This document shows, piece after piece, positions 40,333 to 44,897 of a stretch of 64,000 bases of DNA. Position 1 is the first letter of the stretch; every line of letters begins with the position of its first letter. The stretch is from Pedobacter frigiditerrae (lineage in GTDB: Bacteria > Bacteroidota > Bacteroidia > Sphingobacteriales > Sphingobacteriaceae): assembly GCF_004331645.1 (NCBI RefSeq), contig NZ_SJSK01000001.1:310001-374000 (forward strand), read 5' to 3'. The notes under the pieces were generated by a model that worked only from the letters and a program-made list of their open reading frames with translations, was not told where the DNA came from and made no database searches. The position numbers were made by a program, and so were the translations under genes.

Positions 40333-42000
40333 ATGACCACAAATATAAACGAAGGTTTAAACCTAAAAGTTAAGAACACACCAACGGGAAGTACATTAAC
40401 CTGTAAAGGTTGGGTACAAGAGGCAGCATTAAGAATGTTGTTAAACAACCTAGACCCAGAGGTTGCTGAAAGACCAGAAGATTTAATTGTTTATGGCGGA
40501 AGAGGAAAGGCCGCTCGTAACAAAGAAGCTTTAGAACTAATTATTAAAGCCTTACAGAACTTAGAAGATAACGAGACTTTATTAATTCAATCGGGTAAAC
40601 CAGTAGGTGTTTTACCAACTCATAAAGATGCACCAAGGGTTTTAATTTCTAATTCGCAATTGGTTCCAAAATGGGCAACACAACAACATTTTGATGAGTT
40701 GGAAGATAAAGGCTTAATGATGTACGGCCAAATGACAGCTGGTTCTTGGATATATATCGGCTCACAAGGAATTGTACAAGGCACCTACGAAACCTACTCG
40801 GCACTTGCCAAAAAACATTTCCAAAGTAATTTAAAAGGAACGTTAAATGTTACTGCTGGTTTAGGCGGAATGGGCGGCGCACAACCTTTGGCCATTACAA
40901 TGAATCAAGGAGTTTGCCTAGCGGCGGATGTAGAAGAATGGCGAATCAAAAAGCGCTTAGAAACCAGATATATTGATGAAATTTCTTATGATATTGATGA
41001 AGCAATCGACAAAGCATTACAATACAAAAAAGAAAATAAGGCACTTTCAATTGGTGTAGTTTGCAATGCAGTTGAGCTTTTGCAGCGATTAATTGATAGA
41101 AATATTGTTCCAGATACATTAACCGACCAAACTTCTGCACACGATCCATTGATTGGTTATTTCCCAGAAGGATTAGGTGTAGCTGAAGCAAATGTATTAA
41201 GAACTGAAAACCCTACCGAATATACCAAGCATTCTTACGCTACAATGGCTAAACATGTTCAGCAAATGCTGGAGCTACAAAAACGTGGCGCAATCACTTT
41301 CGATTATGGCAATAACTTGCGTGGAAGGGCTTTGGAAGCTGGTGTTAAAAACGCTTTCGATTTTCCTGGCTTTGTACCTGCCTACATTCGTCCTTTATTT
41401 TGTGAAGGAAAAGGACCTTTTAGATGGGCAGCCTTAAGTGGCGACCCTCAAGATATTTATGAAACCGATAAATTGATTTTGGAGTTGTTTCCAGAAAATG
41501 AAAGTTTACGCCAATGGATTAAAATGGCTCAAGAACGAATTGCTTTTCAGGGTTTACCTGCCAGAATTTGTTGGCTGGGGCAAGGAGAAAGAGAAAAAGC
41601 TGGCTTAGCCTTTAACAAATTAGTAGCCGATGGAAAAGTGAAAGCGCCTATTGTTATTGGTCGCGACCATTTAGATACGGGCTCTGTTGCTTCTCCAAAT
41701 CGTGAAACAGAAGCTATGCTTGATGGCTCCGATGCTGTTGCAGATTGGCCAATTTTAAATGCGCTGATCAATACTGCTGGTGGTGCAAGTTGGGTTTCTT
41801 TGCATCATGGTGGTGGTGTTGGCATTGGTTATTCTATTCACGCCGGTATGGTTATCGTTGCCGATGGAACTGAAGACGCAGCAATACGCATTAAACGTGT
41901 ATTACATAACGACCCTGCAATGGGCGTAATTCGCCACGCTGATGCTGGTTACGATATTGCAAAAGATACATTAAGAAAACATAGATTGGGATTGAAGTAG
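40333..42000 (+). CDS. hutU: Urocanate hydratase
   Basis: A 555-residue NAD+-dependent enzyme converting urocanate to imidazolonepropionate, step two of histidine catabolism. The NAD-binding segment is [28 protein letters not shown], split around residues 175-200. The active-site cysteine lies in [21 protein letters not shown], and [17 protein letters not shown] is the conserved C-terminal block. The length matches the family (about 555). It is monocistronic and separated from hutH by 6 kb containing unrelated genes. Confidence 0.96.
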
Positions 42001-42003
42001 ACT

Positions 42004-42022
42004 CATCCTGAGCTTGTCGAAG
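42004..42022. repeat. CCTGAGCTTGTCGAAGG element after hutU
   Basis: Directly after the hutU stop, CATCCTGAGCTTGTCGAAGG is a further copy of the dispersed CTGAG/TTCGA word also seen at 29961 and 30041. A partial reverse match (ATTACGCTCAGACCG) follows at about 42042-42056. Confidence 0.5.
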
Positions 42023-42100
42023 GACAATTGAAGAGTTTTCGATTACGCTCAGACCGACAATTCTTTAATTTTTCCAAAAATAATATTAAGTTTGCCTTAA

Positions 42101-42150
42101 GGAAATGGTGTCTTCCTATTTGAACCGCCCTAAAAAGCTGATGACGCCTG
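42101..42150 (+). promoter_or_regulatory. Fluoride riboswitch (crcB motif)
   Basis: The leader before the CLC-type channel carries the conserved fluoride-aptamer sequence. GGAA (42101-42104) pairs with TTCC (42113-42116) around ATGGTGTC. GGTGTC (42107-42112) pairs with GACGCC (42143-42148), giving the interlocked helix. AACCGCC and GCTGATGACGCCT hold the conserved nucleotides of the motif. The gene downstream is a fluoride-type CLC protein, the expected partner. An alternative hairpin at 42147-42178, just before the ATG at 42184, could be the expression platform. Confidence 0.93.
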
Positions 42151-42178
42151 GTTATGAATGTAAAAACATTTAATCAGG
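42147..42178 (+). promoter_or_regulatory. Possible riboswitch expression-platform hairpin
   Basis: CCTGGTTA pairs with TAATCAGG (one wobble), and AATGT/ACATT forms an inner stem around AAAA. It uses the CC at 42147-42148 that belongs to the aptamer helix, so the two structures should be exclusive. It ends 5 nt before the preferred start codon. Confidence 0.5.
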
Positions 42179-42183
42179 GTATT

Positions 42184-43491
42184 ATGTCATTAAAAAAAGA
42201 AAAATCGATCAGCAAAAAAATCAATCTTAATATTTTAATTTTTTTCAGGAAATATCCTGCTATTCCATACATCTTAAAATGGCTGTTTATCAGTTTAATT
42301 GTAGGTGGCTTAATTGGCACAGCATCTGCCGGATTTTTGCAATCTTTAGAATGGGTTACCAATTTCCGAGAAAATCATATATGGATAATTGGCTTTTTAC
42401 CAATTGCAGGTTTGCTTATTGGCTTGCTCTATTATTATTGGGGCAAAGATGTTGAAGCAGGTAACAATTTATTGATTGATACCATTCATGAACCCAAACA
42501 AATTATTCCTTTTAAAATGATGCCCTTTGTGTATTTGGGCACAATGGCTACACATCTATTTGGTGGTTCTGCAGGACGTGAAGGTACTGCTTTACAAATG
42601 GCAGGTGCAATTGCCGACCAATTCAGCAAACCTTTTAAGCTGTCTTCAGATGAGAGAAAGATTTTAATTATTGCCGCAATTGCTGCAGGTTTTGGATCTG
42701 TTTTCGGAACACCTTTGGCTGGCGCCGTATTCGGAATGGAAGTCTTTTTAATCGGCAAATTAAAATACGATTCGATTTTTCCTGCATTTGCATCAGCAAT
42801 CATTGCAGATTTAGTTACTAAACTTTGGAATACACACCATACCGTTTATCACATAGACTTTGTTCCAAATGTTTCTTTCTTAAACCTTATTTATGCGATA
42901 ATTGCAGGTGTTATTTTTGGCTTATGCGCCGCAGCATTTAGCAAAACCTTGCATTATGTTGGTTCTATTTTCAAATCGAAAATAAAATATCCTCCACTTA
43001 GACCATTAATTGGAGGTATAATCCTGGTAATCATTATTTACCTTTCAGGAACTACGAAATACATTGGCTTAGGTATTCCAACCATTGTTGAATCATTTAA
43101 CCAACAATTACCAACTTATAGTTTTGCCATAAAAATGGCATTAACCATACTCACTTTGGCTGCTGGTTTTAAAGGCGGCGAAGTAACTCCACTATTTTTT
43201 ATTGGCGCAACCTTGGGCAGTGCTTTATCGTTATTTTTGCCGTTACCCGTTGGACTTTTAGCCGGAATGGGCTTTGTTGCTGTTTTTGCTGGTGCAACCA
43301 ATACTCCTTTAGCTTGTATATTTATGGCAATGGAGTTATTTGGTAGCGAATGTGGAATATATGTGGCCATTGCTTGCACTATTTCTTACCTGCTTTCTGG
43401 CCCCAATGGAATTTATGGCAAACAAGCAGTAGGAGAAGCTAAACATAGTAGATTTAAGAACTACATCAATAAGCGAATCAGCGAGATTTAG
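42184..43491 (+). CDS. CLC-type fluoride/proton antiporter (CLC-F)
   Basis: A 435-residue membrane protein of the CLC family. The first selectivity motif is GNNLL (about 93-97) instead of GSGIP, a feature of the fluoride-specific CLC-F branch. GREGTAL (about 131-137) holds the gating glutamate, followed by FGTPLAGAVFGMEV and a second-half KGGEVTPLFFIGATLG. It expels fluoride from the cytoplasm. An ATG at 42154 is in frame but lies at the aptamer edge inside the alternative hairpin, so ATG 42184 is preferred. The fluoride riboswitch upstream fits the function. The 3' end overlaps the convergent FAD gene by 4 nt. Confidence 0.92.
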   Translation: MSLKKEKSISKKINLNILIFFRKYPAIPYILKWLFISLIVGGLIGTASAGFLQSLEWVTNFRENHIWIIGFLPIAGLLIGLLYYYWGKDVEAGNNLLIDTIHEPKQIIPFKMMPFVYLGTMATHLFGGSAGREGTALQMAGAIADQFSKPFKLSSDERKILIIAAIAAGFGSVFGTPLAGAVFGMEVFLIGKLKYDSIFPAFASAIIADLVTKLWNTHHTVYHIDFVPNVSFLNLIYAIIAGVIFGLCAAAFSKTLHYVGSIFKSKIKYPPLRPLIGGIILVIIIYLSGTTKYIGLGIPTIVESFNQQLPTYSFAIKMALTILTLAAGFKGGEVTPLFFIGATLGSALSLFLPLPVGLLAGMGFVAVFAGATNTPLACIFMAMELFGSECGIYVAIACTISYLLSGPNGIYGKQAVGEAKHSRFKNYINKRISEI

Positions 43492-44897
43492 TTATAATAA
43501 GCATCAAATAGCTTATTTCTAAATTTATATTCAGGGTCATATTTTTTCTTTAATTTGAAAAATTCCAAGGCATTAGGATATGCTTTCAAAAATTGTTCTT
43601 TACGAGCATAGATTTGATATGGCAAATAATAAGAACCTTTTTCGACTATTGAAGCATCAATTAATTGACCTGTCCATATTTTTACTTTTTCTTTATCAGC
43701 ATCTAAAACTCCTTGTTTATAATAAATTACAAAAGCAAAAACTTCAGCCTTTGCCCAAGCCATCTGTGAGCCAGGGTCGCGATTTGCATGCCTAATTGAA
43801 ATATTCATTACGTTGACTTTATTCTCTTTCAAAACCCTAATCATTTTTGGATAAAAAGAACCAAATTGCGCTATAGGAACAAAGTATTCTTGCAGTACAT
43901 AAGTAGATTTCTCACGAGAACTTGGTTCCAATTCTGCCACATCATAAGTCGCCTCATAATTTCTCCACTCAACTACGTTTCCAGAATAATACAATGGATT
44001 AATAACATCCTTTCTTAACCATTTTCCAAAGCAAGAATTTGAAACAGTTTTTATCGCGAATCGATTCATCACATAACTACCATCATTGGGCTTCAACCTG
44101 TCTTTAATTGTCAATTCCTTATCTGTTTTCATATAAGAAATTGCCCTAATCTCATCAAAATCCCTAGGGTAAATATCTGCGTTATGAAAAATTACATCTG
44201 AATTGTTTTTTATGGTGTTTGAGAAAAAATGATTGTATCCACTAATCTTCATTACGGTATCTTTCCGTTCTACTTTACAATTTTCTGTTAATGAAAGGGT
44301 AACTTCTGTAATTACCCCAATACCACCATATCCTCCAATTGCAGCATAAAAAATTTCTTGATTTTGGAATGGGCTAGCGGCTATCAAATCACCATTGGCT
44401 AGTAAAATTTTTATGCTTTTAACTGATAAAATAATTGGGCCTTGTCCAACATATCTGCCGTGTACATTTACACTTAAAGAACCACCAACAGTGAAATTTG
44501 CATAAGTCTGCATTATTTTAACCGACAAATCGTACTTGTCTATAAATTGAATTAATTCTCTCCACCTTATTCCTGCTTGAACTGTAATTTCTTTTTGCTC
44601 TTTCGAAAAACTAATAATACGATTGAACTTACGCATATCTATTTGGATTGTATTCTCAGTTGCAGTTTGTCCACCCATACTAAATCTTCCTCCGCCTATA
44701 GAAATTGTTCCTTTTTGATTTTTAACAACACCTATAATTTCTGAGTTAGTTGTTGGCACTACAACTCGCTGAACCTTTATTGGGTTAAGTTGAGAAACAT
44801 CATTAACAATATTTTGTTCTTCTTTTGGGTTATCAATTGAACAAGAAGAAATTATTAATAGAAAATAAAGTATCGATAGTCGAAAATATTTTTCCAT
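43488..44897 (-). CDS. Secreted FAD-binding oxidoreductase lipoprotein
   Basis: A 469-residue protein of the FAD_binding_4/D-arabinono-lactone-oxidase-like group, with a lipobox (IISSC, Cys about 19) so it is outside the cytoplasm. The flavin segment IGGGRFSMGGQT (about 68-79) is followed by VQAGIRWRELIQFI, ANFTVGGSLSVNVHGRYVGQG and GYGGIGVITEVTLSL. Where related enzymes have a His for covalent FAD (GGGHS) this one has Arg-Phe, so the flavin may be non-covalent. The substrate is unknown. It converges on the CLC gene with a 4-nt overlap. Confidence 0.85.
   Translation of the reverse strand: MEKYFRLSILYFLLIISSCSIDNPKEEQNIVNDVSQLNPIKVQRVVVPTTNSEIIGVVKNQKGTISIGGGRFSMGGQTATENTIQIDMRKFNRIISFSKEQKEITVQAGIRWRELIQFIDKYDLSVKIMQTYANFTVGGSLSVNVHGRYVGQGPIILSVKSIKILLANGDLIAASPFQNQEIFYAAIGGYGGIGVITEVTLSLTENCKVERKDTVMKISGYNHFFSNTIKNNSDVIFHNADIYPRDFDEIRAISYMKTDKELTIKDRLKPNDGSYVMNRFAIKTVSNSCFGKWLRKDVINPLYYSGNVVEWRNYEATYDVAELEPSSREKSTYVLQEYFVPIAQFGSFYPKMIRVLKENKVNVMNISIRHANRDPGSQMAWAKAEVFAFVIYYKQGVLDADKEKVKIWTGQLIDASIVEKGSYYLPYQIYARKEQFLKAYPNALEFFKLKKKYDPEYKFRNKLFDAYYN

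Follow-up and report, generated by a model that had tools for sequence, protein, structure and literature searches.

A fluoride riboswitch of Pedobacter with a switch hairpin at the start codon: a probable control of translation initiation without a Shine-Dalgarno sequence

We find that the leader of clcF, a predicted CLC-type fluoride/proton antiporter gene of Pedobacter frigiditerrae, is probably an ON switch that responds to fluoride and controls the initiation of translation with no Shine-Dalgarno (SD) sequence involved. The leader lies in a stretch of 64,000 nt (contig NZ_SJSK01000001.1, positions 310,001 to 374,000; hereafter the window), and all coordinates below are those of the window. 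Comparison with related leaders shows the aptamer and a predicted hairpin that excludes the aptamer pseudoknot, lies by the start codon in the majority of the sampled Bacteroidia leaders and usually lacks a U tract. We named this hairpin P4 after the switch stem in PMC13273304.

The aptamer and its gene

The leader and the gene comprise the following features:

42087-42094, + strand: TANNTTTG box, read in the sequence, a promoter -7-like element by its consensus; it ends 6 nt before P1
42092-42157, + strand: fluoride riboswitch aptamer RF01734 (cmscan, 40.3 bits, E 1.1e-7)
42101-42104 with 42113-42116 (42101..42116), + strand: P1 hairpin, from the covariance-model alignment, paired in 27/27 window-like leaders
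42107-42112, + strand: pseudoknot 5' strand GGUGUC, read from the sequence, pairing with 42143-42148
42143-42148, + strand: pseudoknot 3' strand GACGCC, read from the sequence, its last two bases common to P4
42147-42154, + strand: P4 5' arm CCUGGUUA, from folding and comparison of leaders
42154-42156, + strand: in-frame ATG within P4, poorly conserved and judged to be no start
42171-42178, + strand: P4 3' arm UAAUCAGG, whose last base leaves 5 nt before ATG 42184
42184-43491, + strand: clcF, predicted CLC-type fluoride/proton antiporter gene, start ATG 42184 (Pfam Voltage_CLC, 1.9e-77)

A sequence-only reading had proposed a fluoride riboswitch at this place, and the covariance search with RF01734 bears it out: the score lies above the gathering score of 34 bits (the E-value being computed over 64 kb), and the 5.8 Mb genome has no other match at E <= 0.001. 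The model aligned end to end, and the conserved elements AACCGCC and GCUGAUGAC, P1 and both pseudoknot strands are all present, at a score that belongs to the low end of the range seen in the genus. From sequence and model, then, 42092-42157 is a fluoride riboswitch aptamer and a putative fluoride binder. It sits between ORF 40333-42000, which is urocanate hydratase-like (named by eye), and ORF 42184-43491. Of 225 distinct upstream sequences from Bacteroidia (the group B leaders described below included), 163 contain a TANNTTTG box within the 35 nt that precede P1; shuffling gives an expectation of 5.9. The window also holds two Flavo-1 RNAs (RF01705; 29918-30014 and 47171-47240, with 54.4 and 51.0 bits), and a further one was seen in L239 (389-463).

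The best solved relative of the clcF product is CLC-F 6d0j (E 1.5e-64, spanning query residues 35-417 of 435), compared to only 3.9e-16 for the best ClcA (1kpl). Because of this match we retain the earlier assignment of the gene to the CLC-F antiporters, its transport selectivity being predicted; the product also contains GNNLL, a motif linked to the fluoride selectivity of CLC-F. The protein would be of the same CLC-type fluoride/proton antiporter class as 6d0j, from which it differs by sequence divergence; in the passing look that we gave it, nothing unusual was noticed. At their stops, clcF and a convergent ORF on the - strand (43488-44897), an FAD-oxidase-like lipoprotein by eye, share 4 nt (43488-43491).

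The start of clcF was examined in the window-like set, i.e. 27 leaders including the window, from Pedobacter and other genera. The sequence-only reading had drawn attention to the in-frame ATG at 42154 inside the hairpin. This codon does exist, but the comparison does not support it as a working part of the switch or as a second start: an ATG stands in this place in 4/27 leaders, in frame in two of them (the window and L050), and is absent in 23/27, while L049, with 94% protein identity over the aligned part, has it out of frame. A different in-frame open ATG lies inside the hairpin in L059 and L173. Since all 27 leaders keep an ATG in the position of 42184, whereas ATG 42154 is unconserved, 42184 is the likely start, and ATG 42154 was dropped as a candidate.

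Leaders compared

RF01734 scored over the cut-off in 93/145 genomes of the genus, 135/251 of a family sample, 30/295 of a class sample and 46/395 of a phylum sample; these samples overlap. In total we used 273 leaders, 229 from the genome samples and 44 from named CLC-F loci in genera that include Chryseobacterium, Flavobacterium, Empedobacter, Arcicella, Confluentibacter and Sphingobacterium. From L001-L234 five were dropped to give the 229: L060, L125, L211 and L214 (weak, clipped or unparsed) and L232 (2 bases). The named loci numbered 80, of which 29 had no aptamer by pattern and 7 more were removed, either as other phyla or mis-hits (L293, L311, L314) or as duplicates of group B leaders (L270, L274, L285, L298). 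An Rfam check of 20 named loci gave RF01734 in 19; the exception, L306, was negative by pattern too. No start was assigned in 23/273 leaders, and the assignment prefers ATG, so that some GUG starts escape it (L178, L189). The full Bacteroidia set holds 182 distinct leaders, kept apart from group B, and 169 of them have an assigned start. Among the 28 leaders from other classes, L230 and L231 fall below the gathering cut-off.

Overlap of hairpin and pseudoknot

P4 consists of 42147-42154 paired with 42171-42178, plus an inner stem, and it overlaps the pseudoknot at C42147 and C42148. A second hairpin at 42147-42178 that competes for these two bases had been pointed out before, and the folding upholds it: the segment 42140-42185 has a folding energy of -12.4 kcal/mol (z -3.75), with 1/200 shuffles equally good, and the hairpin ends 5 nt from ATG 42184. 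The fold of the whole leader is weaker (z -1.76; 13/200 shuffles equally good). The P4 hairpin itself is calculated at -10.1 kcal/mol and falls to -4.2 to -5.0 kcal/mol once its two C-G pairs, which are the entire overlap, are ceded to the pseudoknot; as isolated duplexes the two are balanced, with -7.7 kcal/mol for the pseudoknot and -8.0 kcal/mol for the outer P4. The modelled cost of opening the region from -12 to +12 around the start is 10.5 kcal/mol when the leader folds freely and 3.5 kcal/mol with the aptamer strand withheld, a drop that partly follows from the constraint. The lowest-energy fold also contained a helix of UGAUGAC (42139-42145) with 42186-42192, which was left out because window-like relatives (L051, L054, L057) carry other bases after the ATG.

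Across the leaders the pseudoknot partner covaries with the base equivalent to 42147. In the 165 leaders that could be parsed (of 182) we counted 131 G-C-G and 24 A-U-A triples and 10 exceptions, where the choice of helix could include the shared base. For the partner test the helix was chosen without the shared base, and such a helix is present in 129/182 leaders: a shared C has G as its partner in 100/114 cases and a shared U has A in 13/15 (p 7e-9; Fisher values overstate independence because the leaders are related by ancestry, and p values here and below are only a guide). When the P4 arms were exchanged among the 159 distinct leaders whose start lies at a distance of 28-100 nt, own arms outscored exchanged arms (mean 15.2 versus 11.1, sd 0.25), and none of 2000 permutations scored as high. 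Double-sided changes in P4 were found across groups (72 distinct leaders, register chosen by the best helix); within the 27 window-like leaders, an alignment uninformative for P4, there were none. Comparison of the leaders shows P4 and the pseudoknot, as predicted pairings, to be mutually exclusive.

P4 and the start codon in Bacteroidia

In a first set of 91 leaders, P4 ends between -4 and +9 nt from the start in 79; of the 91, 63 beat 95% of their shuffles and 28 do not. In the full set a helix of at least 5 pairs is present in 180/182 distinct Bacteroidia leaders, and P4 overlaps the start or lies no more than 10 nt away in 131/169, compared to 6/21 leaders from other classes of the phylum (Fisher p 1.3e-5, with the caution given above). 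The commonest gaps between P4 and start are 6, 1, 0, 4 and 5 nt, and close relatives retain both P4 and the short spacing. In the other 38/169 Bacteroidia leaders P4 lies outside this distance. Some of these result from miscalled starts, as in L137, L159 and L165, where the assigned start is more than 200 nt away; among the others are short or distant cases (L109, L112, L300).

The helix may also take in the start itself. In L065, L071, L178, L179 and L185 the gap is -3 and the assigned GUG start pairs with the pseudoknot strand CGC; L142, L155 and L161 likewise have a gap of -3, with AUG but only 3-5 pairs. The AUG itself is in the stem in L108 (CCUGUACAU/AUGUACAGG), and in L126 the arm extends from the AUG into the first codons. 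L198, L291, L297 and L309 show another placement of the switch arm: their helix, CUUCAAC/GUUGAAG (or GUUGGAG), starts inside the AUG and reaches codons 2-3. As judged from these predicted structures, a helix that is seeded by an aptamer strand and covers or abuts the start codon is a recurring feature, found in at least two architectures.

A second arrangement in Pedobacter

A second architecture was seen in group B, 47 leaders of the genus that we set apart from the P4-type leaders. None of the 47 has a P4 that beats 95% of its shuffles; we therefore looked for a helix formed by the P3 strand, and found it. All 47 carry the aptamer strand ACAGGC before UGAUGAC and AUGCCUGUU at the start, and the two can form a helix of six pairs, ACAGGC/GCCUGU, whose probability in the unbound ensemble averages 0.93 (>0.5 in 46/47). 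Across 35 genes of equal length there are 111 conserved fourfold codons; the third base is fixed in codons 2 and 3 alone, and the median share of the majority base is 0.49. In L306, a Pedobacter relative without the riboswitch, the AUGCCUGUU start is absent (a single case). The pairs are invariant, so covariation cannot be tested within group B. These data suggest that in group B the P3 strand would pair with the start codon region, codons 1-3, and so freeze synonymous sites.

Mechanism and alternative explanations

From the known riboswitch class we infer that the aptamer would bind fluoride, that binding would turn expression on and that translation would be the regulated step. Without fluoride, P4 (or, in group B, the P3-strand helix) would cover the start region. 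With fluoride, the pseudoknot would claim C42147-C42148 and P4 would lose its base; in group B, pseudoknot and P3 would reclaim the aptamer strand. The start region would then be open, and ribosomes of the Bacteroidia type, reliant on an unstructured start, could load and make the fluoride exporter. A preference of Bacteroidia for low structure near the start is reported in PMC9976891 and PMC6847099, the latter describing initiation in F. johnsoniae as dependent on low structure and upstream adenines. According to PMC9976891, Bacteroidia ribosomes fail to recognise SD sequences, with rpsU as the described exception, and contacts to the 16S tail come mostly from residues uniquely conserved in Bacteroidia.

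The characterised fluoride riboswitches offer another explanation, in which P4 would be an intrinsic terminator with a poor U tract and the leader would act by transcription attenuation. The overlap of P4 and pseudoknot does match the one in the transcriptional covariation model of PMC13273304, and clear platforms of hairpin plus U tract exist in other classes of the phylum (L207, L209, L216, L225). Within Bacteroidia 11/182 leaders have at least 6 T in the 9 nt after P4, compared to 9/28 in other classes (p 2.3e-4); with a laxer cut of at least 5 T in 9 the numbers are 48/182 and 11/28, and the class difference shrinks. This scarcity of U tracts in Bacteroidia agrees with the class boundary for SD use as given in PMC9976891. 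In the window P4 is followed directly not by a U tract but by GUAUUAUGU, the start codon among these bases, and in L108 and L126 the arm falls inside the coding start. No terminator-like site was found in 41950-42300, by a scan that has little power because it gave no excess over shuffles across 20 kb (15 versus 14.3). We regard attenuation as unlikely at this locus; the earlier suggestion that the layout fits a translational rather than a terminator-type output now has the class-wide comparison behind it.

If the regulated step is translation, the hidden element could still be a real SD sequence, namely CAGG (often followed by A) in the 3' arm of P4. Most window-like leaders indeed place CAGG about 4-7 nt before the AUG, where an SD would be expected, and the window has an SD-like AGGG at an SD-like distance. 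However, AGG in this arm is dictated by complementarity to the pseudoknot end and the next base (CCU), and in other genera the arm stands at a spacing of 0 or 1 or overlaps the start (-3), too near for an SD. Together with the reported failure of Bacteroidia ribosomes to recognise SD sequences, rpsU excepted (PMC9976891), this makes SD sequestration quite improbable. That the hairpin is a chance fold next to an aptamer relic, with P4 non-functional at this locus, would match the low score for the genus (40.3 bits) and the weak fold of the whole leader, but the aptamer model is aligned over its full length, and in close relatives both P4 and its short distance to the start are preserved; we give this explanation hardly any weight. 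In some other translational riboswitches the block is known to be coupled to Rho-dependent termination or mRNA decay. Such coupling would leave the same appearance in the sequence, and with this precedent it may occur here as well, although we consider it doubtful; it would add a consequence to the block at the start codon and not replace it.

Relation to known riboswitches and significance

The proposed start-codon switch shares several traits with known systems. Pseudomonas syringae and Burkholderia are bacteria that use SD sequences, whereas here the hidden element would be the neighbourhood of the start codon and the ribosomes are reportedly SD-blind. The translational fluoride riboswitches of these hosts, which are named as translational controls in PMC13273304, would have the regulated step in common with the present one. 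The terminating fluoride riboswitches (RF01734; PMC13273304) likewise combine aptamer and pseudoknot with a P4 further downstream, some of whose bases belong to the pseudoknot 3' strand, but there P4 is followed by poly-U, with start codons in most cases 28 nt after the termination site, while the P4 described here has no U tract and abuts or contains the start codon. The direct-type riboswitches of a 2007 survey (PMC2258182) also have a ligand-linked structure near the start codon; as described there, the start lies no more than 15 nt from the aptamer core, whereas here a separate switch helix is seeded by the aptamer, and no ribosome-binding sequence is implied.

The aptamer, the gene and, for terminator-type members, the overlap of P4 and pseudoknot (PMC13273304) were thus already known; an output directed at the start codon for SD-blind ribosomes we did not find described among the open-licence papers listed. 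PMC13273304 tested 1901 fluoride riboswitches, and its main text does not contain 'Bacteroid', though its supplement may hold such sequences. Among the matches listed from the open-licence literature, no title or abstract opening treats the output of fluoride riboswitches in Bacteroidota, and translational riboswitch control in non-SD bacteria seems, within the same matches, to be little described.

TPP leaders of the same genus were inspected by eye (20 leaders, no control). Downstream of the aptamers, L318 and L323 have CAUUCC upstream and GGAAUG containing the AUG, and L319 and others have UUCCA together with a UGGAA that lies in AUGGAA. These patterns hint that start codons may be paired in the TPP riboswitch class too.

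On the whole we lean, with some reserve, towards a wider interpretation: Bacteroidia would have rebuilt the fluoride output for SD-blind ribosomes, with an aptamer strand that pairs either in the pseudoknot or with the start region and a helix that moves across the start (upstream of it, enclosing the GUG or AUG, or within the first codons), next to a separate Pedobacter version in which the P3 strand pairs with codons 1-3 and freezes synonymous sites. The set of leaders offers testable contrasts between stems with the GUG or AUG inside, stems that abut the start and terminator-type relatives in sister classes, and the switch may be of use as an ON switch for Bacteroidia genetics. If this interpretation is true, occlusion of the start codon would be how translational riboswitches of Bacteroidia act in general.
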